A stretch of 22,440 nucleotides of DNA from a virus. Each line of letters begins with the position of its first letter. Position 1 is the first letter of the stretch. Positions 1 to 22,440 of the stretch are shown one piece after another. The position numbers and the translations under genes are program-made. Below the pieces are notes generated by a model, which worked only from the letters and a program-made list of their open reading frames with translations, searched no databases and was not told the DNA's origin. The stretch lies in IMG/VR virus record IMGVR_UViG_3300020411_003196, positions 1-22,440 of that record. One strand, given 5' to 3'.

Positions 1-1423
1 CTCTTGAATTAACAGTGACTGTTGCAGCAGCATTATTTCCATCGCCAGTTACAGTTATAGTTTGTGTACCAGTATATCCATGTCCTGGATCTACAATACT
101 AATATTATCTATTACACCAGATGAATTAATATTAGTAGAAAGTACAGCATGGTGATTTGGTATAGCTGTAAAATTAGGCAAGAATAATGAAGCAAACGCT
201 TCGACTAATAAAGCCACATCTTCTTTACCAATAAACCCTGGTTGTAAACCTGGCATTGAAGATAATGTTTTACGATTTGTTCTTCCGTATATATCAAGAT
301 ATCGATACATTACATCTGTTAAACCAGGAACTTGAATATTACCAGTTCCATCGTTTTGAGATGAAGAAGCACCTTCACCAAATGTATAAGAAGATATTCT
401 ATCATCATCTCCTAAGGCTGCACGAGTTAGTTCAGTTAGAATCATTATCTCACCGAAGAATATAAACCCAGCTGGATGAACTAATCTTTCGAATATCTTA
501 GACCAATCAGCTACGTTTTTACCTGTTTTAATATTATAAGAGAATTTCTGATAACGATAACTATCTTGAATCTTAATTGCCTTAGTATTTAAGAATCCAC
601 TATCATCCGTATAAGCATTTAATCCTTGATCCCACTTACCATCTGAAGGTTTTAAAGTATTATCCCAAGGATATTCTACTTCAACATTCTCATTAAATAA
701 TAGTCTAAAGAAGATCTCGATTGCATCTTGAGAACCTTTTAATTTATAGAACTCTGTGATATTTTTATATAAAGCTCTTTTATCTACATTTAAATCTTTT
801 GGAATTAATGAAGCAATTTCCTTCTGCATCATATCTAAATGTTTTGTTTCATTCTCATCAATGTTCATCGACTCTTCAATAGCATTAATAATATATGAAG
901 GACCAGGCCCTACCCAATTAGTTTGTGGAGTAGTTAATGTAGCCTTAAGACCATTATATGCAGTTAATCCTGAAATAGTAACAGTTTTACCATAAGGATT
1001 AGTTGAAGTGGCTAAGGATCCTGGTAATTCGTTACCATTAGAGATTAACCAATTAGTAGAATTTAAAGGTATATTAACTTCGGTGCCATTAGCTTGTGTT
1101 ATAACTAATGTAGATCCCGCACCATCTTTAGCTCCAAAGAATTTATTATTATCTAAATTAGGATCTGGAATTCTGAATACTGCTTTTCCTGAAGCAACAC
1201 CATTATCAACATATGTTTGAGTTTCTACATAAGTAAACTCTTTCATATTCATGAACTTATAATAATATTCAAGTAATTGTTTTATTCCGGTGTCGCCGGC
1301 GTCTTCTAGTACCTGCGAAGGAATTAGCTGATCAATTCGAATATCTTCCTTAGTTTTTCTTTTTAAGGAAGCGACCGATTCTATATAATTCGGATTCTCT
1401 GAATCTGATCCATATGTTGCCAT
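1..1423 (-). CDS. Large baseplate-wedge-region virion protein (gp7/gp8-type), 3' end outside the window
   Basis: The reading frame starts at ATG 1423-1421, two bases after the gp6 stop, and stays open to the window edge, giving at least 474 residues (MATYGSDSENPNYIESVASL at the N-terminus). Residues about 1-60 are helical and charged; then comes a beta-rich stretch with many Gly/Asn/Thr, then a helical segment with LPKDLNVDKRALYKNITEF and YKLKGSQDAIEIFFRLLF. From memory, that kind of segment occurs in large T4-type marine phage wedge proteins annotated gp7 or gp8. It follows gp25 and gp6, where T4 also has its wedge genes. The visible C-terminal part (DPGHGYTGTQTITVTGDG) looks like a beta-sandwich repeat unit. 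The exact wedge gene is uncertain; a tail-fibre-network protein is an alternative. Confidence 0.6.
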   Translation of the reverse strand, partial: MATYGSDSENPNYIESVASLKRKTKEDIRIDQLIPSQVLEDAGDTGIKQLLEYYYKFMNMKEFTYVETQTYVDNGVASGKAVFRIPDPNLDNNKFFGAKDGAGSTLVITQANGTEVNIPLNSTNWLISNGNELPGSLATSTNPYGKTVTISGLTAYNGLKATLTTPQTNWVGPGPSYIINAIEESMNIDENETKHLDMMQKEIASLIPKDLNVDKRALYKNITEFYKLKGSQDAIEIFFRLLFNENVEVEYPWDNTLKPSDGKWDQGLNAYTDDSGFLNTKAIKIQDSYRYQKFSYNIKTGKNVADWSKIFERLVHPAGFIFFGEIMILTELTRAALGDDDRISSYTFGEGASSSQNDGTGNIQVPGLTDVMYRYLDIYGRTNRKTLSSMPGLQPGFIGKEDVALLVEAFASLFLPNFTAIPNHHAVLSTNINSSGVIDNISIVDPGHGYTGTQTITVTGDGNNAAATVTVNSR

Positions 1424-1425
1424 TA

Positions 1426-3303
1426 TTAAGTCCTAAATCTTGAAGTCGTTGTATAATCAATTGAACCAGAAGAACCTGAAACAGCTATTGTATCTTCTTC
1501 AGCAGTCAATGTAGTTCTAGTAGAATCAATTGAAAGTAATTCATCTCTCTTAGGAGCTATGTCTAAAGAAAGAGGAGTCGCATTAATTCTTATAGCTGTT
1601 GTATCATCTGGTGTAAATCCACTTAAAATTACTATACCAGTATCTGGATCTACGGTACCACAATCTTCTATTGTAGTTACTGCTACTTGATTAACAATTT
1701 TATACGCGTATATTTGTCTCTTAGTAGAATCTGCAATTGCTTTATCTGCAAAATAATTATCTACTCCATTTAATTTCCATGCTGTACTTGTTAAACACGA
1801 ATCTTTAAAAGTTGTTCCACCTGGAACATGAAATTTTCCTGGATAAGTTAGTGTGAAATTATTTAAAGCTGTATTCGAAGGCGTAACTGATTTAAACAAA
1901 AAAGGCCTTACCGTTGAGTTTAGTATTGCCGGATCAGCAGAATCAATTGCTTTTAATAAAGCTGAATGACGAAATACACCATCGAATTTGTTTAAGTTAT
2001 CTAAAGAATAATCATCTAAAGTGTCCGTAACAACAGTTTTAAGATCTGAAGCAGACCTATCTGTTAAGTTAGGATTATATTTAAATGATACATCAAGTTC
2101 TAAATAACTATAGTTAGGATCTACAATTTCAGGAGTAATAGAAACAACGTTCTTTCCTTTTAAAATTGATCCTTTAATCTGATTTTTTTCTGCATCTGTT
2201 AATGTTGCTGCCGTAACTGGTTTAATACATACGAATACTTTACCGTAATCTGGAATAGCTTGATCTTCACCACCCCAAGTAGATAATGATTCTATATTAG
2301 AAAATTCTCTTTGAATAATAGAACCATAGTCTTCTGAAGTCACAGCTCTATTTTGTGAAGTATATGTTAACGGAGCATTGTATCTAATAGATTCTAATGT
2401 TTCTTGATCCGCTCCACCGGCAGCCGTAACAGTAGTAGTTGGAGTTCCAATTGTTCCTCCAGCTGGAATCCAAGCACTAGAAGCGACAGTAAAAGTTTTA
2501 GCTCCATTAGCATCTAATCCATTAGTTGTTACGTAATCTAATGTGACTATCTGATTATTTTCAGGTTTAGTTCCTGTAACGCCATCTCCAAAATAAACTT
2601 CGTAATTTCCTGAAGTATTTTCTTGTAAGTGATATATTTTTGAAGAAGCATTAACGTTAACTAATGTTGTAAATTTAGTAAATATATCATATGACGTTGA
2701 TTCTTCGTTCGCCTGTACACGCACGCGTAGCGTAGAAGTATCACAAGCTTTATGTGGAATCTGATGTTTCTGCATAGAAATATCGTTATCAACTCTATAT
2801 TTAATTGAGTTATAAGTTCCTTCAGCTATTTCTACATCAGTAAAAGTAAATGTTTTGCTAGATCCTGAATCAACTCTATTAACAGTAGTAGAATCTAAAG
2901 TTACGAAATTAAATGTTTCTCCATCTACAGTCGTAGAGAATTTTGTTCCTCTAGGTAATGTTAAAGAAGATCTTAAAGGTGACTCCGAAGAACTAGAAAC
3001 GTCGACCACCAACGTTACTTTAGCTCTTGGAGACAAAGAACTTCTAGGAACATATCCTAATTGTCTTGCTCTTGCAACAGCATTACCTCTTATTTGTGCT
3101 GAATCAAGAAATGCTTCGTTCAATGCTAAGTGAGCAGCCATAGCATTATAATGTGTATTATAAGCTAGGACATCTAATAATATATTAAGTCCAGCACCGT
3201 CAAAGTCATAATCGTTAAATACTGTTTGTTGTTTTAAATAATTTTTCAGATTATTTTTAATATCTGGAAAATCTAGATCTGTTGTTTTTAAAGTTGTGGC
3301 CAT
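1426..3303 (-). CDS. 6: Baseplate wedge protein gp6 (Baseplate J family)
   Basis: 625 residues, close to the T4 gp6 length. gp6 forms the iris-like ring of the baseplate wedge and links neighbouring wedges. The N-terminus (DLDFPDIKNNLKNYLKQQ, then GAGLNILLDVLAYNTHYNA and LNEAFLDSAQIRGNAVARA) is the typical start of T4-type gp6/Baseplate_J proteins. The middle has AGGADQETLESIRYNAPLTY and AVTSEDYGSII, which match the conserved J-domain stretch around the 'R.NAP' motif. The start ATG at 3303 follows an AAGG-type ribosome site and lies 4 bases after the gp25 stop, so the two genes are translated in series within the late leftward operon. Confidence 0.92.
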   Translation of the reverse strand: MATTLKTTDLDFPDIKNNLKNYLKQQTVFNDYDFDGAGLNILLDVLAYNTHYNAMAAHLALNEAFLDSAQIRGNAVARARQLGYVPRSSLSPRAKVTLVVDVSSSSESPLRSSLTLPRGTKFSTTVDGETFNFVTLDSTTVNRVDSGSSKTFTFTDVEIAEGTYNSIKYRVDNDISMQKHQIPHKACDTSTLRVRVQANEESTSYDIFTKFTTLVNVNASSKIYHLQENTSGNYEVYFGDGVTGTKPENNQIVTLDYVTTNGLDANGAKTFTVASSAWIPAGGTIGTPTTTVTAAGGADQETLESIRYNAPLTYTSQNRAVTSEDYGSIIQREFSNIESLSTWGGEDQAIPDYGKVFVCIKPVTAATLTDAEKNQIKGSILKGKNVVSITPEIVDPNYSYLELDVSFKYNPNLTDRSASDLKTVVTDTLDDYSLDNLNKFDGVFRHSALLKAIDSADPAILNSTVRPFLFKSVTPSNTALNNFTLTYPGKFHVPGGTTFKDSCLTSTAWKLNGVDNYFADKAIADSTKRQIYAYKIVNQVAVTTIEDCGTVDPDTGIVILSGFTPDDTTAIRINATPLSLDIAPKRDELLSIDSTRTTLTAEEDTIAVSGSSGSIDYTTTSRFRT

Positions 3304-3307
3304 GATT

Positions 3308-3745
3308 CTACCTTAATCTTTGTAATCTTATTTCAACATTTTCATTAATGTCAAATTCAATTATTTTAAAAGTTATTGTAACGTCCCATGCATTTCTATC
3401 TGCATTATTGATAATATTAACTCCAAGTAATCTTATTCTTGGTTCGTACAATTCTAATACTTCTGTTATATCTTCTCTTAACATAACTTCAGTCATGAAA
3501 TCTGCAGGTTCGAATAAAAGCCCTACTAAATTACCACCCTTCTCAGGTTGAAATGGTCTTTCATAGAAGTTAGTTAATATTAAATTCTTTACGGCAGCTT
3601 TTATAGCGGCATCATCTTTTAAAGGAACTACATCTTTACGAATAGGATGCAGAGTAAGCTTCAAGTTTAGATCAGCCCAAGGTTTTTTCCTTGAGACAAC
3701 ACTAACTGCCGTTTCGGTTCCTGTCTTGTCGCTTAATTGTGCCAT
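3308..3745 (-). CDS. 25: Baseplate wedge protein gp25 (gp25/lysozyme-like fold)
   Basis: 145 residues, close to T4 gp25 (132). This small wedge protein belongs to the gp25 family shared by contractile injection machines and binds the wedge core next to the sheath. It shows the family hallmark ERPFQPEKGGNLVGLLFEP (residues about 81-99), the 'EPR' type motif, followed by the helical DITEVLELYEPRI stretch. The family was once called acidic lysozyme, but no enzymatic function is inferred here. The start codon sits only a few bases downstream of a late promoter element on the same strand (3751-3758). That element overlaps the stop codon of the preceding gene, so gp25 and everything after it can be transcribed independently of the genes before. 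Confidence 0.92.
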   Translation of the reverse strand: MAQLSDKTGTETAVSVVSRKKPWADLNLKLTLHPIRKDVVPLKDDAAIKAAVKNLILTNFYERPFQPEKGGNLVGLLFEPADFMTEVMLREDITEVLELYEPRIRLLGVNIINNADRNAWDVTITFKIIEFDINENVEIRLQRLR

Positions 3746-3750
3746 ATATC

Positions 3751-3758
3751 TATTTATA
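3751..3758 (-). promoter_or_regulatory. T4-type late promoter TATAAATA before gp25
   Basis: The minus strand carries TATAAATA, the T4 late promoter consensus, ending 5 bases before the gp25 ATG (3745). The element overlaps the GTA TAA end of the preceding gene. A late promoter normally initiates a few bases downstream, so transcripts would have almost no 5' leader. The same 19-base module (GTATAAATAGATATATGGC) occurs before the gene at 9631. It would be read by the gp55-sigma RNA polymerase with the gp33 coactivator. Confidence 0.7.
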
Positions 3759-4680
3759 CGCCTTCATCCGCGCGTCTCTTATCGACAATGGCTTTTTTCT
3801 TTTCAAATTTATGTTTTGAAGCTTCCTCAAAGGACATAATAGATTTTAATGTAGTTGACTCTTTTACTAAAAAATCTTTTTCAATAACTACTCTTACATC
3901 AGCGTACCATTTTTCCCAACTAGCTTTTGCCTTTGTTCCGGTCCATCCGTCTGGAGCTACTTCCAATGCATTACCGTATCTTTGATCTGTTTTAGGTATA
4001 TAATAGATATTTCTAGTTTCTATATCTATTCCTAAAAGAGACGCCTGATCTATAGACCATTCATATAAGAATATCTCTTTTAGAGCTCTAAAGTATTTGT
4101 CTTTATTTCTTCTCTTAGCTGATTTTAAAGGCTCCATATTTTTTGCTTCATATAAAAACTGTTCCCACATTTGATTTCTTGAAGTAGTAAAACATATTTC
4201 TGACCAATAAACTTTCTTTTCGTCATCATTCATTGGTTCTTTTGGTTTAGGTTTTTCTGGAGCTTCTTTAGGAGGTTTAGAATCTTTTGGAGCTTCCACC
4301 GGAGCTCCGTCTACCATTTCAACATTAGGCATGCCTTTACATATAGCCGACGCGTCGATACTAGGTGGAAAAGAATCTAATCCTAAACCGCTTATTAAAT
4401 TATCAAAATCAGGTATAGCATCTCCAAACTTACCTTTCAATTCTGCTAATTTAGAAGTTAAGTCTGAAGCATTCGCAAGATCTCCTAATTCAGATAATGC
4501 TCCTTGTATTCCATCAATAGCTGGAATTTCAGGCATAAACGCTGCTATGTCTAATTTCATAACATTCATTTTGGCTTGCAAAGTAGCTAATTGATCTTTG
4601 CCTGAAGACATAACACCGTCTAACTCTTTTTGAACATCCTTAAGAGCCTTAAGATTTACATTTTCTCCGCATACACTCAT
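3754..4680 (-). CDS. Unknown virion-associated protein between gp5 and gp25
   Basis: 308 residues, not recognised as a named T4 protein. The first 110 residues are helical and coiled-coil-like (LKALKDVQKELDGVM, LATLQAKMNVMKLDIAAF). A Pro/Lys/Glu-rich linker follows at about 125-150 (APKDSKPPKEAPEKPKPKEP), then a charged C-terminal domain rich in aromatic residues (SEICFTTSRNQMWEQFLYEA, FLYEWSIDQASLLGI) and a basic tail. Its ATG overlaps the gp5 stop, and it ends inside the gp25 promoter. A position between the hub spike gene and a wedge gene suggests a structural or assembly role in the baseplate. That is context inference only. Confidence 0.75.
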   Translation of the reverse strand: MSVCGENVNLKALKDVQKELDGVMSSGKDQLATLQAKMNVMKLDIAAFMPEIPAIDGIQGALSELGDLANASDLTSKLAELKGKFGDAIPDFDNLISGLGLDSFPPSIDASAICKGMPNVEMVDGAPVEAPKDSKPPKEAPEKPKPKEPMNDDEKKVYWSEICFTTSRNQMWEQFLYEAKNMEPLKSAKRRNKDKYFRALKEIFLYEWSIDQASLLGIDIETRNIYYIPKTDQRYGNALEVAPDGWTGTKAKASWEKWYADVRVVIEKDFLVKESTTLKSIMSFEEASKHKFEKKKAIVDKRRADEGV

Positions 4681-6080
4681 TATCCTGTACCTGAACCTGT
4701 ATTAACTTGAGCATCACCACCACCGTCAGCACCTTGAGGATGGACGTGTCCAGTTAACGTTACTTCTGGATCTCCAGCTTTTACTTCAACCGAAGCATCT
4801 AGAGTTCCTGTTAAATCTACATTATTCTTAATATCTAAATTATCAGCTTCAAAGGTTTGTTGACCAACTACAGTTATTGTGTGTGCGCCGTCTACTTTTT
4901 CTATCATATCTTTAGTTGTTTCAACTCCGATATTACCGTCTGAAGTAATCATAAGAGCACCGAGTCCGGCCTTAGTCATTTTACCTCCAGAATATTCATT
5001 TGAATCATTTATAATTGTATTAGAATAATTATTATTTGTATTGATAATATAATCGTTACCAATAGTTATTTGTTTATCTTTAACAACATTGCCGAATTGA
5101 TTCATCATAACTCCTAATGAATCATCCATTCCAACATTAGTTGCACGGTTTCTAGAAATTTCTGTTTCTAAATTACCACCGATTTTTCTTTGTACGCTTC
5201 CTTTTACATTCCACGTTAAATCTTTTTCTACTTCTAAATGGTAATTACCATATACCATTGTTCTTAAATCACCATCTACGGTAAGATTACAATTACCTTG
5301 AACGTGAACATTTTTATCAGATATTACTATTTCATAATCTTTACTAACAACTTTAACTTGTCTTGTTCCGTCTTTTAAAATTTCTTCGTATGTTCCTGAA
5401 GTATGTTGTCTATTTAATCTTTCATGTCCAGGAGTATCATCAATCTCTATAACGTGGCCTTGTTCTGATTCATAAACTTTATTATAAGGATATTGAGGAA
5501 CATGATCACCATTCATAGGTTTCAATTCATCCCAAGTACCTTCTGCATAATAACTATCTGATTTATCTTCAGCAACTGTAGAAATTTTAGCCGGAGATGC
5601 TGTTTTTACTTGATTAACCGCATCAGTACCTTGTCTTTGTTGTAAAGGATCTGATTCAGAATAAGAATCTTCCCTTGCTAATTTATTAACATCCGAATCA
5701 TTTATATACTCGGGTCTAGGATATTCTAAATTTGGATCAGCAAATCCTTTCGAAGGATCCGGCATTTCTTTAGACATTGAAGCAACAGAACCTATAATAA
5801 TAGGATCTTGAGCCATAGGCCCATCTCTAAAAAATCCAACTACCCAAGAACCTTGCATTAATCCGTGTGGACTAGTTCCTATTCCTGATGTTCCGGATTC
5901 TGTTGTAGGCATCATAACAGTTGCCCACGGTAAATCTTCTGTAGGTATTTCACCTAAATTGTCTGTATGATAACCAAGACATCTTACTTGTACACGGTTT
6001 TGTTCTAATGGATCCATTCTGGATTCTACAACACCCGTAAACCAATTAAATTGACCAGTTACAAAATCATCTTTTCTCAT
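4680..6080 (-). CDS. 5: Baseplate hub spike protein gp5, without a lysozyme domain
   Basis: gp5 forms the membrane-piercing needle under the gp27 hub. Residues about 10-110 form the OB-fold domain (WFTGVVESRMDPLEQNRVQV, PWATVMMPTTESGTSG, GSWVVGFFRDGPMAQDPIII). A linker leads to EQGHVIEIDDTPGHERLN, then a beta-helix with short repeats (VHVQGNCNLTVDGDL, GNYHLEVEKDL, GGNLETEI). The C-terminal end has GHVHP, the His-x-His tip motif found in metal-capped phage spikes. T4 gp5 carries a lysozyme domain between OB fold and beta-helix; here that space holds only a low-complexity linker. I chose ATG 6080 (MRKDD) because it overlaps the gp27 stop as ATGA and is correctly spaced from AGAAGG. ATG 6086 is the alternative. 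Confidence 0.9.
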   Translation of the reverse strand: MRKDDFVTGQFNWFTGVVESRMDPLEQNRVQVRCLGYHTDNLGEIPTEDLPWATVMMPTTESGTSGIGTSPHGLMQGSWVVGFFRDGPMAQDPIIIGSVASMSKEMPDPSKGFADPNLEYPRPEYINDSDVNKLAREDSYSESDPLQQRQGTDAVNQVKTASPAKISTVAEDKSDSYYAEGTWDELKPMNGDHVPQYPYNKVYESEQGHVIEIDDTPGHERLNRQHTSGTYEEILKDGTRQVKVVSKDYEIVISDKNVHVQGNCNLTVDGDLRTMVYGNYHLEVEKDLTWNVKGSVQRKIGGNLETEISRNRATNVGMDDSLGVMMNQFGNVVKDKQITIGNDYIINTNNNYSNTIINDSNEYSGGKMTKAGLGALMITSDGNIGVETTKDMIEKVDGAHTITVVGQQTFEADNLDIKNNVDLTGTLDASVEVKAGDPEVTLTGHVHPQGADGGGDAQVNTGSGTG

Positions 6081-7435
6081 TTCCATTCACCTTCTATTTT
6101 TGAATCTAGATCTAACATTGAAGAATCTTTTCTTGCTGTTAGATCCATTTCATATTTATCTGGACCAAACTTATGAATAACGTGTGTTATTATATGTTTG
6201 CCAGATAACATTTCATCTTTTATATTACTTCTATTTTTTAATTCTGGATTAGTAGATAAAGGAATAAAAACATCTACTAAGGCTCCAGGATACATATCAA
6301 AATCTCCAGCAACAGTTAATTCGTGCGTCATATAATTTAAATTATTTAACATTGATTCTGATTTTTGTAAATTGTCTTTTACTGCAAAATGATAATTATC
6401 TTCGTCAGTATAAGATTGTGTATTAATATTTAAATGAAATTGTCTTTGCGCTGTAAATTCATCTAGAGTTTTATCTAGAAATTTTGATTTATCTGTTTTA
6501 GAAAAAGGGTCATTGTCATTTAATAGCCCTTGTCCTTTTTTATAATTATAAAATTTTGTTTCTATTTTTTTTGTAGCTATATCTACAGCTAATAATTCTG
6601 AAGCATAAGTTCCTTTAGTCACAGCATTAAATTTAGACATTCCTAAATTAGAAGATATTTTGTGTATTCTTTTTTGTAAATCTTTAAAAGCCTCTTCTGT
6701 TTTAGTATTATCTTTATGAAAAGGTTTATGTTCATATTCTTTAAGTACTTCTTGATCACATAAATTCTTTAAAGAATCAAATTTAATTCCTTTAGCTAAA
6801 GATTCATAAAAGAAAAAAGGAGTAGATGCATCAAATGAATTTCTCATTAACCATTCTATAGCTCTTAAAGGTTTTAATTGTGGATATATTCCTTTTACAA
6901 CTCCGGTTGTTTCTGTATTAATATCATAGTAATCTTTATCTACTTCTAAATCTCTTTTTAATATATTCTCTAAACATTCTCCAACAGATCCATTAAAAGA
7001 TCTATTAAGTTTAATTAATTGAGAGATATATGCTAACTCAGATACACACTTTAATTGAAACGTCTGGGTCCCAGGATTGGGCCTAGAGTGATTAATTACA
7101 TCACTGACATAGAATGTATTAGTAAACTTCTTTGTTTTATTGGACTTATCCTTTTTAATAGGTACTTGAGAAACTTCAACATCTACTCTTTCATTTCCTG
7201 AAATTCTCATGAAAGGCATAAAGTTTTTAGCATCGGCTACATCTAAAGTACATGTTATAGAAGATTGATTAATATTTTCTCTAAAAACAATATTAGTAAC
7301 GAAATCTTTTATATCTACATACTCTTTACTATCGCTATTAGGATAGAAACGAATATAATTTTTTTGATAAGAATCAGGCGTGGCTTGTATGCCGCCTATT
7401 CCTCTCGCTGCTACTTGTGGATTATTATCAGACAT
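6077..7435 (-). CDS. 27: Baseplate hub protein gp27
   Basis: 452 residues, somewhat longer than T4 gp27 (391). gp27 makes the trimeric hub ring that joins the gp5 spike to the tail tube. Residues about 27-120 hold the first tube-like domain (NYIRFYPNSDSKEYVDIKDF, then NIVFRENINQSSITCTLDV). FQLKCVSELAYISQLIKLNR and GSVGECLENILKRDL follow, then PLRAIEWLMRNSFDASTPFF and a late beta domain (MTHELTVAGDFDMYPGALVDVFIP) typical of hub proteins. The stop overlaps the gp5 start (ATGA) and the ATG overlaps the gp53 stop region, so gp53-gp27-gp5 are tightly coupled. Identification rests on motif feel plus the invariant gp27-gp5 pairing. Confidence 0.85.
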   Translation of the reverse strand: MSDNNPQVAARGIGGIQATPDSYQKNYIRFYPNSDSKEYVDIKDFVTNIVFRENINQSSITCTLDVADAKNFMPFMRISGNERVDVEVSQVPIKKDKSNKTKKFTNTFYVSDVINHSRPNPGTQTFQLKCVSELAYISQLIKLNRSFNGSVGECLENILKRDLEVDKDYYDINTETTGVVKGIYPQLKPLRAIEWLMRNSFDASTPFFFYESLAKGIKFDSLKNLCDQEVLKEYEHKPFHKDNTKTEEAFKDLQKRIHKISSNLGMSKFNAVTKGTYASELLAVDIATKKIETKFYNYKKGQGLLNDNDPFSKTDKSKFLDKTLDEFTAQRQFHLNINTQSYTDEDNYHFAVKDNLQKSESMLNNLNYMTHELTVAGDFDMYPGALVDVFIPLSTNPELKNRSNIKDEMLSGKHIITHVIHKFGPDKYEMDLTARKDSSMLDLDSKIEGEWK

Positions 7436-8294
7436 TTACCATCGACTCAAATGTATCAACGAACTTTTGAATGTACGCTGCATCTATAACTCTAATTTTG
7501 GATCTTTGTTCGTTTAAATCATTTACATAAGCTCTATTAGTTACTACATTATCAGGATATGTTAAACCTGCTACGCTACCAAATTGCATTTCCAATCTAG
7601 TTTCTGTAGACCATTCTGCACCAGGATCCGAAAAGAATTGTGCGTTTGATACTTGAGTCTTAGTAGGATCCGTTGGATCATACCAATGATGTGGAGCATC
7701 TATATAATCATATACATGATATGTTTCAACTAATTCATCGTCACTGTTTTTAATATCTTCCCTTACAGTTATTCCTGTTCCTCTAGCATTACCTATGAAA
7801 GATCCAGTTACGTCTTTAAGTATTAATTGATTATTAAATAAATCTTTTTTTACTAAAGTTCCTTTTGCACCGCTTGTAGCACCAGTAATAGTTTCATCTA
7901 AATTAAATCTATTAGCAATTGAATTTTTATAATCAGTAATCAAACCATCAGTATTTCTAACAATTTTAGGTAGAGTTTCAATAGCAACACCTTCGTATTC
8001 TGTTTTCATATAATCTTGTAAGTCTTCTTGAGACATAGGCCAAGAACCTATACCATCATGAAGAAAATCATTTACTAAAAAGAATGTCCAATGGAATTGT
8101 GAATTACCATATAGTTTCTGAGATACTATATCAGGCCTAGCTCCGTTAGGTATATCATAGTATCGATAAGCAGAAATTTGATCTACGTAATTTTGAATAG
8201 GTCTTACTTGTTTATAAATGTCTACTACATTTTGATAAACCCCATCCCTATTAAAGTCGTATTGTGATTGTGTAAATAAACTAAAGTATGCCAT
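7428..8294 (-). CDS. 53: Baseplate wedge protein gp53
   Basis: 288 residues against 196 in T4 gp53, which holds the wedges together around the hub. The N-terminal 100 residues carry the family signature: a YDIPNGARPDIVSQKLYGNS stretch and FHWTFFLVNDFLHDGIGSWP. An added beta-rich insert of about 90 residues in the middle (ETITGATSGAKGTLVKKDLF, then LKDVTGSFIGNARGTGITV) accounts for the extra length. The C-terminal part (YVNDLNEQRSKIRVIDAAYI) returns to the family pattern. It overlaps gp48 by one base (TAATG) and gp27 by 8 bases in the late leftward operon. Confidence 0.92.
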   Translation of the reverse strand: MAYFSLFTQSQYDFNRDGVYQNVVDIYKQVRPIQNYVDQISAYRYYDIPNGARPDIVSQKLYGNSQFHWTFFLVNDFLHDGIGSWPMSQEDLQDYMKTEYEGVAIETLPKIVRNTDGLITDYKNSIANRFNLDETITGATSGAKGTLVKKDLFNNQLILKDVTGSFIGNARGTGITVREDIKNSDDELVETYHVYDYIDAPHHWYDPTDPTKTQVSNAQFFSDPGAEWSTETRLEMQFGSVAGLTYPDNVVTNRAYVNDLNEQRSKIRVIDAAYIQKFVDTFESMVNV

Positions 8295-9130
8295 TATCCT
8301 TCACTCCCACCTGCTGATGAAGGTATATTCAACGGAGAGTTTCTTGTATAATGATATTCTGTATTGTCGTATCCATCGACATCATCATAAAGATCTCCAC
8401 GAGTAAGTCCTTTTGATTCTTGGAATGTTAAAGATACATCTATTTCTACAGGTCCACCGTCTGGGTGAAAAGAATTTGCTGTAGCATTATATGTAGAGTT
8501 CATAGATTGTAAATAACATAAATGAATAAAAGGCATAAATTTATTTTCTGAAGCTCCTTTCATGAAACGAATTTGCCAATAAGGAGGATATTCTAAAAGG
8601 AATGAACTTTCACCTAGTTTAGGATATAGAAATTTTCTAAAAGTATTTTCTATTTGTCTGATCTGTTCCATTTCTTTAGCAGACTCAGCAACTAATTTAA
8701 AAGTAAAATTAAATGATCTTAATACTGTTCCTTGAAACGCTACATTAACATATGGGTTTTTAGCTACACCAGCTGAAATTAAAGCAGCTTGACCGACAGC
8801 TCCTATTTTATTAGCAGCTGCTAAAGTAGCTAATCCTTTTAGATCTGAAAGTTTTACTTCAGGCTTATCATCATCTACGGCCTGAGATAGTTTCTCAATC
8901 GTTCCACCCATAGTTCCTAATTCTACTTGTTGATAGGTTGCCCCGTCAGGAACTGCTATACCCGGTGGGGTATACAGCATTATATGTTTCTTTTCTTCTA
9001 AGGCTTCGCGATTTTTAATAGTAAAATGAATATATTCTTTGTCTATATTTTGCGCTTCGGCAAGATCCAAAGGATACATTAATCTTGGTGATTCGCTAGT
9101 TGATTTTTCTTCTGCTTGTGCTTCGGCCAT
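8294..9130 (-). CDS. 48: Baseplate tail-tube-associated protein gp48 (gp48/gp54 type)
   Basis: 278 residues; T4 gp48 has 364. gp48 and gp54 cap the hub and give the first ring on which the tail tube polymerises. The segment RLMYPLDLAEAQNIDKEYI, followed by IMLYTPPGIAVPDGATYQQV and an alanine-rich stretch, is the usual start of gp48-like proteins. The C-terminal half (FKLVAESAKEMEQIRQIENT, LEYPPYWQIRF, FIHLCYLQSMNSTYNA) resembles the tail-tube fold. It is the first gene of the leftward late operon, 36 bases downstream of the late promoter at 9167-9174. It might instead be the gp54 equivalent. Confidence 0.82.
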   Translation of the reverse strand: MAEAQAEEKSTSESPRLMYPLDLAEAQNIDKEYIHFTIKNREALEEKKHIMLYTPPGIAVPDGATYQQVELGTMGGTIEKLSQAVDDDKPEVKLSDLKGLATLAAANKIGAVGQAALISAGVAKNPYVNVAFQGTVLRSFNFTFKLVAESAKEMEQIRQIENTFRKFLYPKLGESSFLLEYPPYWQIRFMKGASENKFMPFIHLCYLQSMNSTYNATANSFHPDGGPVEIDVSLTFQESKGLTRGDLYDDVDGYDNTEYHYTRNSPLNIPSSAGGSEG

Positions 9131-12198: not shown

Positions 12199-14049
12199 AT
12201 GGCAGACGATACAGTTAAGATTACCGGTGAAAATATTACCGTAGAGAAAGGGGCACAGAATGATAAATCCCTAGATGAATCTAAGGCTAAAGCCAAAGAA
12301 GAAAATAAGCCTAAAAAAGATTCTCCGGCTGAGACTGAACAGGTCGCTGGATTAAAGGAAATTGTCACTCAACTTAAATCTCAAAATGAGTTAACTAAAC
12401 AAGAAGCTGAAAGAACTAAGTTCCAAAATGATCTTACTTCAGCTTTAAAAACCTCAGGTGATAGATTAAATGAAGCTCAAACAGATCAAATTAAAGCCTT
12501 GGTCGCAACTTTGGGTGCAGGTAAATTAGCTGATTTAGAAGATCGAAAAGAAGAAATGGCCCAGTCTAAAGCTATATTGGCAGCCTTAGAAGGGATCGGT
12601 GATAATACCAAGATAGATAAAATGGCCACGACTGAATGGGGAATCATGGCCCCAGGATTAATTCTTGCGACATTAATTGGTTTAACTATAGGCCTAGTTG
12701 AAGGTCTTGCTTCATCTTTTAGAAAATGGGGTAAATGGATGAATAAAGGATTAGTCCAGCCCGTTATTAAAGCTCTGAGGTTTTTCGTAAGAGGATTGGG
12801 TAATCTAATATCAAAAATACTTCCAGCCAAAGTATTAAAGTTTTTCACTAACTTTTTTACACGTATCAGCAACTTTTTTAAGACTATTAATAATCAATTC
12901 AAGGCAGGACGACAAGGTCTCTTGTTGGCTAGGAATGCCGTAGGTCAATTTACAAAATTAGGTTTCTTTGGATGGTTAGGTAGACAAGTCACTAATATAA
13001 AAAATATGTTTCAAACGGCCCAATCTGCAATTCAAAAGGCCAAATTGAATATTATGAATGGTTTCGATAAAGCTGTTAAATTTATCACAAAACCTTTTAC
13101 AGCCATTGGAAATTTCTTTAAACCAATTACTGATGCCGCAAAGAAAATAACCGGTACTTTCGGGTCAACCGGTAGTTCTTCAACTAGTATGTTTCAAACT
13201 CTAAAAGATTTCTTTAAAAAATTTGGAAAACTATCTAAACGTTTCTTTAAGTTTGGTAGAGTTGTAGGACAAGTAATAGGTAAACTTGCTTGGCCAATTC
13301 AAGTAATTATTGGAGCTTTCGAATTTGTTACTGGTGCTATACGAGGATTTAAAAAGAGTGAAAGAACAGGCACGCTTGGCAAACTCATAGATGGAATATG
13401 GCAAGGTGTTGTTGATCTAGTTAAATTTATTGTCTTGTGGCCATTAGATATGACAAGAAAAGTATGGGCTTGGATAATGGAGAAATTAGGGTTTGAGGAT
13501 GCCGCAGAAAATCTAAGAAGCTTCTCATTCCAAGATTTGTTTCAAAATCTGATGGATAAAATAAAGGATGCCTTTTGGAGTGTAGTAGATTGGTTTGTAG
13601 AGTTATTTAAAAATCCTGGAGATGTATTTAAAGACTTGGTCGGTAAAGGTATGGACCTTATGGAGAAGGTTGACAAAATGATGAGAGGATTAGTAGCTAG
13701 TATTCTTCCAGACCCAGATGCTGAAGGTAATAGTATTGGTGCTTGGACAAATTGGTTCGCATCTCAGGCAATTCCAAGTGCAGTATATGAATACGCAGGC
13801 CTAGATCCTCACACTGGTGATCCTCTTAAAGTTCATAGTAATATAAAAACTACAGCTGGCAATACAGGTATAGAAATAGATACCGGTTCTAAAGAAAATG
13901 CTGATGCAGATAAGGAAGCTAGAGACGGTAACGTACAAAATATTATCGCTGGTGGTGATAGCAATAGTGCTAATCAAACTACTATTAATATAGTTGATGG
14001 TGGTAATAACGATCTTACAAACGACGAGCTAGCTGCTTCTAGAGCATAA
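12199..14049 (+). CDS. Tape measure protein (gp29-like), 616 aa
   Basis: 616 residues, near T4 gp29 (590), which fixes tail length. A charged, coiled-coil N-terminus (residues about 30-130, e.g. LKEIVTQLKSQNELTKQEAE) leads to a strongly hydrophobic helix at about 148-172 (GIMAPGLILATLIGLTIGLV). A long basic helical region rich in Phe/Lys follows, then two more hydrophobic stretches at about 355-380 and 395-430, and a Gly/Asn/Asp-rich C-terminus. Hydrophobic helices plus long helical regions are typical of tape measures, which enter the host membrane on ejection. A place right after the gp26/gp51-type chaperones supports the call. Direct gp29 homology cannot be confirmed by eye. Confidence 0.72.
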   Translation: MADDTVKITGENITVEKGAQNDKSLDESKAKAKEENKPKKDSPAETEQVAGLKEIVTQLKSQNELTKQEAERTKFQNDLTSALKTSGDRLNEAQTDQIKALVATLGAGKLADLEDRKEEMAQSKAILAALEGIGDNTKIDKMATTEWGIMAPGLILATLIGLTIGLVEGLASSFRKWGKWMNKGLVQPVIKALRFFVRGLGNLISKILPAKVLKFFTNFFTRISNFFKTINNQFKAGRQGLLLARNAVGQFTKLGFFGWLGRQVTNIKNMFQTAQSAIQKAKLNIMNGFDKAVKFITKPFTAIGNFFKPITDAAKKITGTFGSTGSSSTSMFQTLKDFFKKFGKLSKRFFKFGRVVGQVIGKLAWPIQVIIGAFEFVTGAIRGFKKSERTGTLGKLIDGIWQGVVDLVKFIVLWPLDMTRKVWAWIMEKLGFEDAAENLRSFSFQDLFQNLMDKIKDAFWSVVDWFVELFKNPGDVFKDLVGKGMDLMEKVDKMMRGLVASILPDPDAEGNSIGAWTNWFASQAIPSAVYEYAGLDPHTGDPLKVHSNIKTTAGNTGIEIDTGSKENADADKEARDGNVQNIIAGGDSNSANQTTINIVDGGNNDLTNDELAASRA

Positions 14050-14187: not shown

Positions 14188-15084
14188 TTACGAATCATTC
14201 GCTAATTTAGCGAAATAGCTGAGGGTATCTTCCTCATCATCTTGAGTTTCCCCAACATTCTCAGTTGCTACATCTGCATTAGCCATAGGCTCAGGTGCAG
14301 TTGCTGTTTCAGTAGCCATAGCCACTGGTCCAGCTGCTTCAACTCCGAGAACTCTATTCAATTTAGCTTTAAGCTCATCATATGATTTGTAGTTCTCTGG
14401 TGAAGTGAACTCCGATAGTGAGTGTATTTTACTATACACTTCTTCAAGCTGAGCATCATCACCACCGTGCAAAGCACTTACTGGTGCGAAGTCAGATTTA
14501 TCATAATTAGTCCAACCTTCAACTTTTCTGATCTTAATTCTAAAATCAGCACCTTCCCAGAAATCAAAAGGATTAACTGGTTGTTCATCGGCGAATTGCG
14601 GTTGCATCACATCCATGATCTTATCGAAGATCTTTTTACCATACCTGTAAAGGAATACTTTTCCTTCAGCATCAGGGTTAGCACTGTCCGATACCACTAG
14701 GACATTGGACACATAATGTAGTCTACGCTTACGATCGCGAGCAGTCTGTTTATCTTCTTCTCGGCCAGAGTTCCAAAGCATGGAATTCATCTCAGAAACG
14801 GGGTCGTTCTGATTGATAGAAGTTAAAGAGTTCTCGATATACCATAGACCAGTAGGGCCTTTAAAGCCGTGATCCCAGTATCGAACCCAAGGTAGATCCT
14901 CACCCTCTTTAGCAGGTAAGAAACGAACAACAGCGTATCCGTTACCAGCTTTGTCTTGGGTGGGTTTCCAGAAACGATCATCCACATAGGATTTAGTTTC
15001 TGTTTTTGTGGAGACTGCTTCCGCAGCCTTTACGAGTTTGTCTATTGACGAGCCTCGTGCACTCTTAAGATTTGCAAATGACAT
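14188..15084 (-). CDS. 32: Single-stranded DNA-binding protein gp32, without cysteines
   Basis: 298 residues, near T4 gp32 (301). It coats ssDNA during replication, recombination and repair and helps load the helicase through gp59. The core has NGYAVVRFLPAKEGEDLPWV, GPTGLWYIENSLTSINQNDP, RRLHYVSNVLVVSDSANPDA and GKVFLYRYGKKIFDKIMDVM, matching the T4 gp32 core (NEGKVFKYRFGKKIWDKI). The N-terminus is the basic, cooperative-binding type; the C-terminus is acidic (GETQDDEEDTLSYF). T4 gp32 holds zinc with His64, Cys77, Cys87 and Cys90; this protein has no cysteine at all. The ATG has a GGAG site 8 bases upstream and follows promoter P1 by about 60 bases. Confidence 0.95.
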   Translation of the reverse strand: MSFANLKSARGSSIDKLVKAAEAVSTKTETKSYVDDRFWKPTQDKAGNGYAVVRFLPAKEGEDLPWVRYWDHGFKGPTGLWYIENSLTSINQNDPVSEMNSMLWNSGREEDKQTARDRKRRLHYVSNVLVVSDSANPDAEGKVFLYRYGKKIFDKIMDVMQPQFADEQPVNPFDFWEGADFRIKIRKVEGWTNYDKSDFAPVSALHGGDDAQLEEVYSKIHSLSEFTSPENYKSYDELKAKLNRVLGVEAAGPVAMATETATAPEPMANADVATENVGETQDDEEDTLSYFAKLANDS

Positions 15085-19668: not shown

Positions 19669-19772
19669 ATGGGCTTTTTTTCGGGGTCCGCCTCAGGAAT
19701 ATAATCTAGAGCCCATAAAACGCCGCCTGTTACGTTATTATTTTTTTTAATATGTAATAGTGCCGGTCTCAT
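19623..19772 (-). CDS. Unknown 49-aa protein whose 3' end carries promoter P3
   Basis: 49 residues, starting MRPALLHIKKNNNVTGGVLW, then an acidic/basic middle (LDYIPEADPEKKPIKSEKKG) and a short end. The ATG overlaps the metallopeptidase stop as ATGA, matching the coupling seen through this region. The last 15 codons spell the A-tract, -35 and -10 of promoter P3, so this part of the protein may be shaped by the promoter. Function unknown; a chance open frame is possible. Confidence 0.55.
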   Translation of the reverse strand: MRPALLHIKKNNNVTGGVLWALDYIPEADPEKKPIKSEKKGLQMKFTVV

Positions 19773-20125
19773 TTTACACGCTCCCAGGGGAAGCATCTAC
19801 CGAATAAGTCAAATTCCATTTTGACTGCTTCTCGTTCGGAAGGATACTGTCCTCTCATAAATTGCTTGGCGTGAACCATCTCATGAGCTAGAGTTCTCAT
19901 CTGCTCAAAGTAAGTTTGCTTCTTGGCGATATGTATTACTGCTTCAGTAGGATCACCTTCACAAATACCTAAGGCATCGCCAAATCCATTAGGCATTCTC
20001 TTAGTGAACTTTACTATAATCTCGCCAGTCTTCCTTGCAGAAAGACCTAGCTTTTTGGTCAAAGAAATCAGATATATCTCGACAAGCTCTTCGTTGTCCG
20101 GATTACCTTGAATTTCTACCATCAT
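19769..20125 (-). CDS. Small zinc metallopeptidase-like protein (HExxH)
   Basis: 118 residues. TLAHEMVHAKQFMRGQYPSE holds the zinc-binding, catalytic HExxH helix (residues about 83-87), and EREAVKMEFDLF gives the likely third ligand Glu about 17 residues on, as in short SprT/M48-like gluzincins. The first half is a small alpha/beta region (VEIYLISLTKKLGLSARKTG, EAVIHIAKKQ). It could cleave or remodel a host or virion protein, or be an inactive zinc-binding protein. Substrate unknown. ATG 20125 has AAGGAG 10 bases upstream, inside the end of the preceding gene. Confidence 0.72.
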   Translation of the reverse strand: MMVEIQGNPDNEELVEIYLISLTKKLGLSARKTGEIIVKFTKRMPNGFGDALGICEGDPTEAVIHIAKKQTYFEQMRTLAHEMVHAKQFMRGQYPSEREAVKMEFDLFGRCFPWERVK

Positions 20126-20127
20126 AT

Positions 20128-20661
20128 TTATGCAGCTCCTTTCATAGCTTGTTGAAATTCTTCCTTCATATGATCATACGGAACTCCTAATGAATATTGA
20201 ACGTAGCCAACATCATATTCCGTAATGAGATCTTCAGCTCCGAGTATCCAACGAATAGCTGTCTGTCTATCCGAAGCACCCAGATTCTTCATAGTGTCTT
20301 CTATCCTCTTTTCGAGCTCAGCTTTGTTAGTAGCATAGTATTCATCCATGCGCTTCATCTCAGCTTCAATAGCTTCGCCGATTCTATCAGCCTCAGCCTT
20401 CAGCTCGTCCATAGACATAGAATCAAAATCGTATCCACGATTTCTGAAACCATAAGCTTCCTTATGGCCATCATAAATATAATTGATTAACTCATCTCTC
20501 TCGAGATCAGCCACAGTGAAGATCTTACGCTCTTCCCAATATTCCACGTCTGTGATATAAGTACCAGACCAACGATTTTTAGGATCTTCTGCGACCCACG
20601 CCTCAATCTCGGCGTTCTTGTTTTTGATATGGTTGATTAGTTCTTGTGATACTTTTGACAT
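20128..20661 (-). CDS. Unknown 177-aa phage protein, first gene after promoter P4
   Basis: 177 residues. The stretch EAYGFRNRGYDFDSMSMDEL (about 67-86), a Tyr-Gly-Phe-Arg-x-Arg motif followed by FDSMS, recurs from memory in hypothetical proteins of many large phages, but I know no function. The remainder is a long acidic helix (IGEAIEAEMKRMDEYYATNK) and a C-terminal helix-rich part (QTAIRWILGAEDLITEYDVG). The ATG has AAGGAG 5 bases upstream and lies about 35 bases downstream of P4. It is followed closely by the metallopeptidase gene. Confidence 0.8.
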   Translation of the reverse strand: MSKVSQELINHIKNKNAEIEAWVAEDPKNRWSGTYITDVEYWEERKIFTVADLERDELINYIYDGHKEAYGFRNRGYDFDSMSMDELKAEADRIGEAIEAEMKRMDEYYATNKAELEKRIEDTMKNLGASDRQTAIRWILGAEDLITEYDVGYVQYSLGVPYDHMKEEFQQAMKGAA

Positions 20662-20778: not shown

Positions 20779-22440
20779 TTATGAGACTTTTTGAGGATAA
20801 TAGATCGTTATAGGCTCGTTCTTGCCTTTAACCTTGATGGTTCCTATCTCTTGGAAAGTATATCCAGTTTCCATGGCCTGCTCCATGGTTGATCGAGATA
20901 CGATAGTTTTATATTTTAAATAATCGGCTCTACCTGCAGTGGCCTCAAGCCTTGCTGCAAGGTTGACTGCATCTCCAATAACCGAATAGTCAAATCGGGA
21001 TTCAGAACCCATGTTACCAACAATACAAGTACCGGTGTTAATACCAGTCCCAACATTAATATCAGGCAAGCCGCGGTTTTTATATTCTCTTTTAAGCGCA
21101 TTTATTTCTTCTTCTATTTCACAAGCTGATTTGACTGCCATATGAGCATGATTTTCGCAAGGTAAAGGTGCGTTCCAAAATGCCATAATACAATCTCCCA
21201 TGTACTTATCTATAGTTCCTCCATTGTTAAGAATAATCTTAGTCATCTTATCTAGAAACTCATTAACTAATTCTACTAATCCTTCCGGATCATCTTGTTC
21301 TTTATAATATTCTGATATAGGAGTGAAACCACATATGTCCATAAAGAGGAAAGTCATTTCTTTTCTTTCTCCTCCTAGCTTTAATAATTCAGGATTCTTT
21401 TGTAGTTGTTTAACTAGATCAGGTGAAACATAAGTACCAAATTGTTTTTTGATTTGTTGTCTTAACTTAAATTGCTTATAGAAATTATTAAAGGATGCTT
21501 GGCCAAAAACTATTATAGATAGTAGTAATGAATAGGTCCAATCGAGTAAGAAGAATGAACCACTCCAGGCAGCTGATGATGCAAGCACGGCGCCGCCAGC
21601 AAATCCTAAGAACGCAACCGCACTCAACCACAATGGAAGATAGTAAACAGCTAGAATTATTCCCAGGCCTAGAATTATCGCCTGTAAAATCTCAGCAAAA
21701 TTTGCAATCTGAGGACGAGTTATTGTATCGCCATTCATTATCGTCTGAAGAGCAGAAGCCTGAATCTGATGAGGATACGCAGGACCTTTCGGAGTCGAAA
21801 GAATGGGTTGAATGCCCTCTGCTGTCACGCCAACAATCACTGTTTTCCCCTGCAGATTGGGTAAGGGATCCGAATACTCGATTTGTTCAAACTGATTGGA
21901 AAAATTCATCCAAATAGAACCTGTTGTATCTGTCTTAATAGGTTCATATGGAGGTATCATTAGATCTTGTATTCCTAATTCATTAACTTTCATAGAATAA
22001 GAGATCTTTTGTTGTAATACTCTTATTATCTCCATTGGGAACGAAGGATATAATTGATCATTAACTTGTGTTATTAACGGCATTCTTCTAACTAGATTAT
22101 CAACCTCAACAGTGCTATTAACCATCCCTACGCCATCAGAGGCGGACTCTAGTGACGGAATATTAGTGACCAGATTAGAATATTCATATGCAAAGTTATA
22201 TGGATCTCCTTCACCTAAAACGGCTGTACCAACATATGGTGCTACATCAGATCTTCCTTTTGATGAAGGTACTTGTGATAAAACTATACCGTTACCTTTA
22301 ATCCACGAGGCAAATACTTCATCACCTCCGAATCTATCTGCTTCAGGATACATTACAGTAATTCCAATTATACCAGCATTTGCATTTCTTAAATCAGAAA
22401 TCATTTGGGCAAAGTATTGTCTTGGCCACGGCCATTGACC
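20779..22440 (-). CDS. CHASE2-domain class III adenylate/guanylate cyclase, 5' end outside the window
   Basis: The frame is open through the right edge, giving at least 553 residues. GQWPWPRQYFAQMISDLRNA precedes the first ATG in frame (22404), so the true start lies outside. The order is CHASE2 sensor (VMYPEADRFGGDEVF, VEVDNLVRRMPLI, QGKTVIVG), three membrane helices (ILQAIILGLGIILAVYYLPL and on), a short linker (FGTYVSPDLVKQL) and a class III catalytic domain. Catalytic residues are present: metal Asp in FMDICGFT, second Asp in KYMGDCIMAF, purine-selecting Lys in DKYMGD, Ser in DYSVIGD, and Asn/Arg in NLAARLE. Lys with Ser/Thr favours ATP and cAMP. The protein would sit in the inner membrane. 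It reads toward P4 with no clear terminator. Confidence 0.93.
   Translation of the reverse strand, partial: GQWPWPRQYFAQMISDLRNANAGIIGITVMYPEADRFGGDEVFASWIKGNGIVLSQVPSSKGRSDVAPYVGTAVLGEGDPYNFAYEYSNLVTNIPSLESASDGVGMVNSTVEVDNLVRRMPLITQVNDQLYPSFPMEIIRVLQQKISYSMKVNELGIQDLMIPPYEPIKTDTTGSIWMNFSNQFEQIEYSDPLPNLQGKTVIVGVTAEGIQPILSTPKGPAYPHQIQASALQTIMNGDTITRPQIANFAEILQAIILGLGIILAVYYLPLWLSAVAFLGFAGGAVLASSAAWSGSFFLLDWTYSLLLSIIVFGQASFNNFYKQFKLRQQIKKQFGTYVSPDLVKQLQKNPELLKLGGERKEMTFLFMDICGFTPISEYYKEQDDPEGLVELVNEFLDKMTKIILNNGGTIDKYMGDCIMAFWNAPLPCENHAHMAVKSACEIEEEINALKREYKNRGLPDINVGTGINTGTCIVGNMGSESRFDYSVIGDAVNLAARLEATAGRADYLKYKTIVSRSTMEQAMETGYTFQEIGTIKVKGKNEPITIYYPQKVS

Follow-up and report, generated by a model that had tools for sequence, protein, structure and literature searches.

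A CHASE2 nucleotide cyclase of T4-like phages and the secretion modules of its relatives

Curli genes were reported in pelagimyophages in 2020 (PMC7029224), and the curli/FecR/adenylate cyclase module of pelagiphages was described in 2022 (PMC9599517). In the study of the isolate Melnitz (PMC9004378), infected cells did not clump, and the curli pathway was judged incomplete. In bacteria, the CHASE2 cyclase clusters of Campylobacterota also hold FecR (PMC9239204), and CyaD1 of S. meliloti gives constitutive cAMP when it lacks CHASE2 (PMC5498481), a precedent for CHASE2 acting as a negative switch. The gene considered here adds a relative to the phage module that is already known; of greater interest is the broader finding that this cyclase is paired with two secretion systems.

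The cyclase and its phage setting

The stretch of DNA analyzed here (the window) is a complete IMG/VR virus record of 22,440 bases, with the following features.

2 to 9130, minus strand: T4-like baseplate block (wedge, hub, and tube cap), which marks the contig as that of a myophage
12199 to 14049, plus strand: tail tape-measure-like protein, a phage landmark convergent with the gp32/cyclase block
14188 to 15084, minus strand: T4 gp32-type single-stranded DNA-binding protein (Pfam gp32, E = 3.4e-42; phrog_224)
19769 to 20125, minus strand: small putative metallopeptidase located between the cyclase and gp32; it carries an HExxH motif (HEMVH) and weakly matches DUF6782
20128 to 20661, minus strand: phage gene of phrog_21968, function unassigned, directly downstream of the cyclase and not constant in the module
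20779 to 22440, minus strand: CHASE2-TM-class III nucleotide cyclase, identified from Pfam, PHROGs, and its relatives, with the 5' end lost at the contig edge

A reading made from the sequence alone had placed the cyclase next to a T4-type early gene block. The neighbors are indeed of T4 type (baseplate genes, tail tube, DNA end protector, tape measure, and gp32), but the word "early" holds only in part: gp32 and the tail/baseplate block are the closest genes that can be identified, and most of those that separate gp32 from the cyclase have no assigned function. The gap between gp32 and the cyclase is about 5.7 kb, with both genes in the same orientation, and gp32 lies 2.0 to 7.5 kb downstream of the cyclase module in the loci of 35 relatives. 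Among isolate genomes, Melnitz (OM43 host) comes closest in the baseplate wedge protein, with 39% identity, followed by Mosig and HTVC008M (SAR11 host) with 36%. Two of these isolates, HTVC008M and Melnitz, carry the cyclase and have it annotated; the window copy is 46% identical to HTVC008M gp019 and 37% identical to that of Melnitz. Relatives are encoded on at least 597 viral contigs, and the claim that a phage carries a copy of a receptor cyclase is borne out by these isolates and contigs.

The position of the gene at the contig edge could suggest an assembly artefact in which a bacterial cyclase was fused onto a phage contig. However, the cyclase lies within phage gene blocks in two isolate genomes and in contigs of up to 130 kb, and the window copy falls within the phage clade of the tree. 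A chimeric join with bacterial DNA is effectively refuted by the isolates, as well as by the long contigs and the tree position, which leaves the artefact with a negligible probability.

Some records did not fit their labels. Two matches to Acinetobacter "phage" sequences (H7 and H8) were dropped as phage evidence, as H8 is flanked by ordinary chromosomal genes; this record (L084; CAKLQF020000009.1), labeled Acinetobacter phage MD-2021a, has mfd, hscA, and iscS around its cyclase and is probably a mislabeled bacterial contig. Conversely, four contigs binned in metagenome-assembled genomes (MAGs) labeled Flavobacteriaceae, Sphingobacteriales, Rickettsiales, and Pelagibacter (L085, L086, L088, and L089) are phage-like and were rejected as bacterial sources, their neighboring genes matching phage genes. 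Their presence in those MAGs is likely contamination of the genome collections.

The cyclase ORF encodes 553 aa and runs off the contig edge, so its true start lies outside the contig. Pfam recognizes CHASE2 (PF05226; 117 bits; E = 1.2e-33; cut-off, 26.3) and Guanylate_cyc (PF00211; 78 bits; E = 1.1e-21), the latter also far over its cut-off, and PHROG_35576 (phrog_35576), a recognized phage family without functional annotation, covers 551 residues (E = 5e-180). The order is that of a receptor, with an N-terminal CHASE2, three TM helices, and a C-terminal catalytic domain. The metal-binding aspartates (D368 and D416), the purine-pocket residues (K412 and S486), and the transition-state residues (N493 and R497) are all found. 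The sequence-only reading, which had described this architecture with its catalytic residues visible and had proposed the two profile searches, agrees with both the Pfam matches and the residue comparison. A full-length relative (L010), modeled by AlphaFold at a pLDDT of 88.4, has one extra N-terminal TM helix that the window copy lacks. The latter begins at the equivalent of residue 64, with about 63 residues and the first TM helix missing; the ATG at 22404 is therefore not the true start.

Among the 86 copies of the first phage set, the six catalytic residues change only in Melnitz, which has D in place of S486 and S in place of N493, apart from a single ambiguous X at K412. All 84 copies of the second set described below keep the six residues, and among 76 bacterial copies, S486 alone varies, to Thr. 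The natural cyclase nearest to the catalytic domain of the full-length model is the adenylate cyclase CyaB of P. aeruginosa (TMt, 0.88; 36% identity), and the cyanobacterial CyaC is also matched. The combination of K412 and S486 favors ATP as the substrate and, hence, cAMP as the predicted product. The cyclase of Melnitz (L083:11809-13857) keeps the metal-binding Asp pair, with Ser for the transition-state Asn and Asp in the purine pocket, and its C-terminal extension resembles that of a bacterial copy (L087); its catalytic part may have been swapped or impaired. With the transition-state Asn lost in this phage, enzyme activity may be dispensable in some lineages.

Linkage to the curli module and its FecR proteins

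In both isolate groups, the cyclase closes a run of genes in the order csgF-csgG-curlin-FecR-curlin-cyclase. Of the 42 phage loci with at least 6 kb of upstream sequence, 41 carry csgF, csgG, curlin, and FecR ahead of the cyclase and on its strand, and the sole exception misses only a recognized first curlin. When the count is centered on csgG, with at least 6 kb downstream, FecR is present in 38/38 phage loci and the cyclase in 37/38, although this set and the cyclase-centered one share some contigs. The curli module is complete in L002, the nearest relative of the window (69% identity), and in the tree the window falls in a clade of 18 rows (SH-aLRT, 99), of which 17, the window included, are curli phage and one is of unassigned context. 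Given this linkage in relatives and the place of the window among curli phage, its own phage very probably carries the csg and FecR genes beyond the point, inside the cyclase, where the contig ends. The sequence-only reading had ranked the gene as a candidate for an undescribed phage system, which proved wrong, because annotations of the gene exist for HTVC008M and Melnitz and the module was published in 2022.

On balance, we favor the interpretation that the gene is the signaling member of a phage surface-fiber module (csgF, csgG, curlin, FecR, second curlin, and CHASE2 cyclase) of a pelagimyophage-type T4-like phage.

Just upstream of csgF in the curli loci, or beside the cyclase in the type I loci described below, is a pair of tandem paralogues of phrog_18771, each of about 80 to 110 residues with, by eye, one hydrophobic helix and a helical tail. 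The family is present in two copies in 115/116 loci (for example, L082:6737-7296), and among 50,697 phage records the first of the two proteins was found only in the six that also have a full-length cyclase. A Pfam scan of the pair gave no match and no kinase domain. The pair may correspond, by position only, to the "histidine kinase, sometimes two" placed before csgF in the published module (PMC9599517).

The FecR proteins of the curli loci share a distinctive end. In 66/68, the C terminus is [VI]x[VI]xQ followed by at most three residues, a pattern that was picked after inspection of the same sequences. It also ends 53/117 curlins strictly, or 95/117 if a longer tail is allowed, but only 12/3272 background ORFs. 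In the csgG-centered set, whose contigs overlap, all 67 FecR proteins have it if Leu is permitted at the first position. None of the clearly non-curli FecR loci shows it; a truncated curli-type locus, L003, accounts for the lone match in that set. The curli-associated FecR proteins thus appear to finish in a curlin-like strand. As the FecR model is of moderate quality (pLDDT, 69.5), only the match of its N-terminal domain was used. In a structure search, this part matches FecR-type anti-sigma proteins, as well as 5ix9, the domain that anchors an ice-binding RTX adhesin to the cell surface (TMt, 0.76; rmsd, 1.1 A over 63 columns). A sequence-profile search of the PDB with the FecR domain likewise gave 5ix9 as its sole match, a weak one (E = 0.012). 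The tail pattern and the 5ix9 match lead us to read FecR here as an anchoring protein associated with the fiber or pore, rather than as an iron regulator.

Type I secretion loci and bacterial relatives

A second viral set of 302 cyclase relatives is usually preceded by OEP/TolC, a small gene, and HlyD; the small gene in L088 matches a phage ABC-transporter family. HlyD lies just upstream of the cyclase in 26 of the 33 loci with more than 900 bases upstream, and the remaining 7 belong to the curli or divergent-curli type. The gene upstream of OEP encodes the putative cargo of the type I secretion system, a protein of about 1000 to 1700 residues. It begins with a FecR domain and, where scanned, also has cadherin repeats, RTX repeats, or both. 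The layout, often followed by a gp47-like exonuclease gene, is FecR-domain cadherin/RTX protein, OEP/TolC, ABC-like gene, HlyD, CHASE2 cyclase, and phrog_18771 pair. Representative loci are as follows.

L181:2513-12515, L221:1578-12467, L203:523-9587, and L088:3-8253: second-family loci
L177:1-10533 and L240:3-7839: two contigs that each combine a type I-associated cyclase with a divergent curli block that has its own CHASE2 cyclase

A nonexhaustive literature search found no published description of this phage type I/FecR-adhesin/cyclase family.

That the cyclase travels with the curli module and also pairs with a second, unrelated secretion system points to a working part of fiber machinery. 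These loci also bear on the proposal, made for Melnitz from synteny and pore modeling (PMC9004378), of a pore for lysis timing, in which CsgG/CsgF and the cyclase would form a gated pore or timer for virion release. The tandem one-TM proteins do look holin-like, although in appearance only and with no Pfam match, and the argument of the Melnitz authors counts in its favor. However, the curli module encodes curlin-repeat proteins (Pfam Curlin_rpt), and the same cyclase also accompanies a type I exporter and an adhesin in the second module. The export of fibers or adhesins is therefore favored over a bare pore, and we regard lysis timing as unlikely.

Among the 76 bacterial CHASE2 cyclases, 24 have a FecR gene within 3 kb, and in 16 loci it is directly upstream on the same strand with a gap of less than 50 bases. 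FecR matches number 25 in the 399 kb near these cyclases and 0 in 716 kb farther off. Many of these loci come from Thalassospira species, so the counts do not represent independent events. FecR and CHASE2 cyclase genes are thereby linked in three settings. A MAG contig binned as Caulobacteraceae holds a curli-FecR-CHASE2 cyclase operon (L087:5992-13081) flanked by glycosyltransferase, TonB-receptor, and peptidase genes, none of which matches the phage set. A search of 299 genomes of its order for a second genome with curli-type FecR gave only two weak, partial FecR matches.

A gene for PycTM, the Pycsar effector, lies 445 bp downstream of this operon. This neighbor is compatible with a role in counterdefense or superinfection exclusion, in which the phage cyclic nucleotide would interfere with Pycsar-like or other nucleotide-based immunity or the fibers would coat the surface and block other phages, and superinfection defense through curli has already been proposed (PMC9599517). 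However, PycTM was seen as a neighbor only this once, so that we rejected PycTM and the cyclase as a recurrent pair, and it was absent from the 10 records searched (phage records and one MAG). Pfam likewise found no PycTM among the neighbors of the gene in the window. We give this explanation little credence.

Host receptors and the proposed signaling role

The sequence-only reading had suggested manipulation of host cAMP signaling, for example, of catabolite control. Under that explanation, the phage cyclase would raise cAMP and steer a CRP-type regulon, metabolism, or defense, and the class III catalytic site, which is intact and has adenylate-type residues, and the architecture of a membrane receptor would both suit it. 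However, the relatives show the gene linked to a secretion module. Furthermore, the cNMP-binding domain PF00027 is absent from 137/148 genomes of Pelagibacteraceae (the family of a Pelagibacter MAG and the presumed SAR11 host family), although receptors without PF00027 are possible, and a class III cyclase is absent from 146/148; one of the two cyclase matches comes from the MAG in which the phage-type contig L089 is binned. As most SAR11-type genomes thus lack both, catabolite control through CRP is improbable in a SAR11 host, the kind of host presumed for the window. The cNMP-binding domain was found in 0/12 module-carrying phage records, and neither a phage-encoded CRP-like receptor nor a PycTM effector turned up in the phage records searched. 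The suggestion was not borne out, and manipulation of host cAMP is doubtful.

We suggest that the cyclase is probably an outside-in sensor for phage-encoded surface fibers, not a driver of the host's own cAMP circuit. During infection, the phage would give the host envelope a curli-type secretion pore and fiber subunits, neither of which it would otherwise have, and the FecR-domain protein would be placed between pore and fiber. The periplasmic CHASE2 would sense whether FecR or the fiber is exported, retained, or lost and would then switch the cytoplasmic cyclase, which is predicted to convert ATP to cAMP. The lack of a receptor domain or PycTM in the phage records searched, the small number of SAR11 genomes with PF00027, the unclumped Melnitz cells with their seemingly incomplete curli pathway, the Melnitz cyclase without its transition-state Asn, and the end of the window before any curli gene are points against this fiber-sensor interpretation. 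More broadly, and more tentatively, marine phages might carry a portable outside-in cassette (FecR anchoring protein, CHASE2 cyclase, and small TM pair) combined with the curli T8SS, with an unrelated type I adhesin exporter, or, in some genomes, with both, and so bring fiber-linked cyclic nucleotide signaling to hosts without a class III cyclase or CRP-type receptor. Phages of SAR11 and its relatives are among the most abundant marine viruses.

Several known systems share parts of this arrangement. Pycsar (PycC/PycTM) has a class III cyclase in common, and a PycTM gene lies near the bacterial curli operon. However, PycC is a cytosolic defense cyclase, whereas the phage gene encodes a membrane receptor within a secretion module and has no accompanying PycTM in the records searched. 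RTX adhesins of the LapA/MpIBP type have N-terminal outer membrane retention modules, and the 5ix9 anchoring domain resembles the FecR domain here; the phage type I version likewise has a FecR-domain cadherin/RTX protein adjoining TolC and HlyD genes. The partner in the Lap system is a c-di-GMP receptor and protease pair, whereas in the phage modules it is a cyclase with a periplasmic sensor.

The bacterial FecR-CHASE2 clusters (those of Campylobacterota, the alphaproteobacterial loci, and S. meliloti CyaD1) share the CHASE2-TM-class III architecture and the FecR neighbor. Unlike in the phage module, curli genes are usually not nearby, and the bacterial cyclases are longer at the C terminus (about 720 to 830 aa, versus about 605 to 645 in most phage copies).

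The closest known system is the pelagiphage type VIII (curli) module (PMC9599517; HTVC008M I899_gp014 to gp019). FecR and the cyclase were said there to be absent from bacterial T8SS operons, whereas the operon in L087 lies among bacterial genes and argues, on the basis of this single MAG contig, that the FecR-curli-cyclase combination exists outside phages. The contig of the window differs from the published module in stopping within the cyclase. Its cyclase belongs to the same family as that of HTVC008M, the gene order of the module is the same in its relatives, and the phages are of the same T4-like group.
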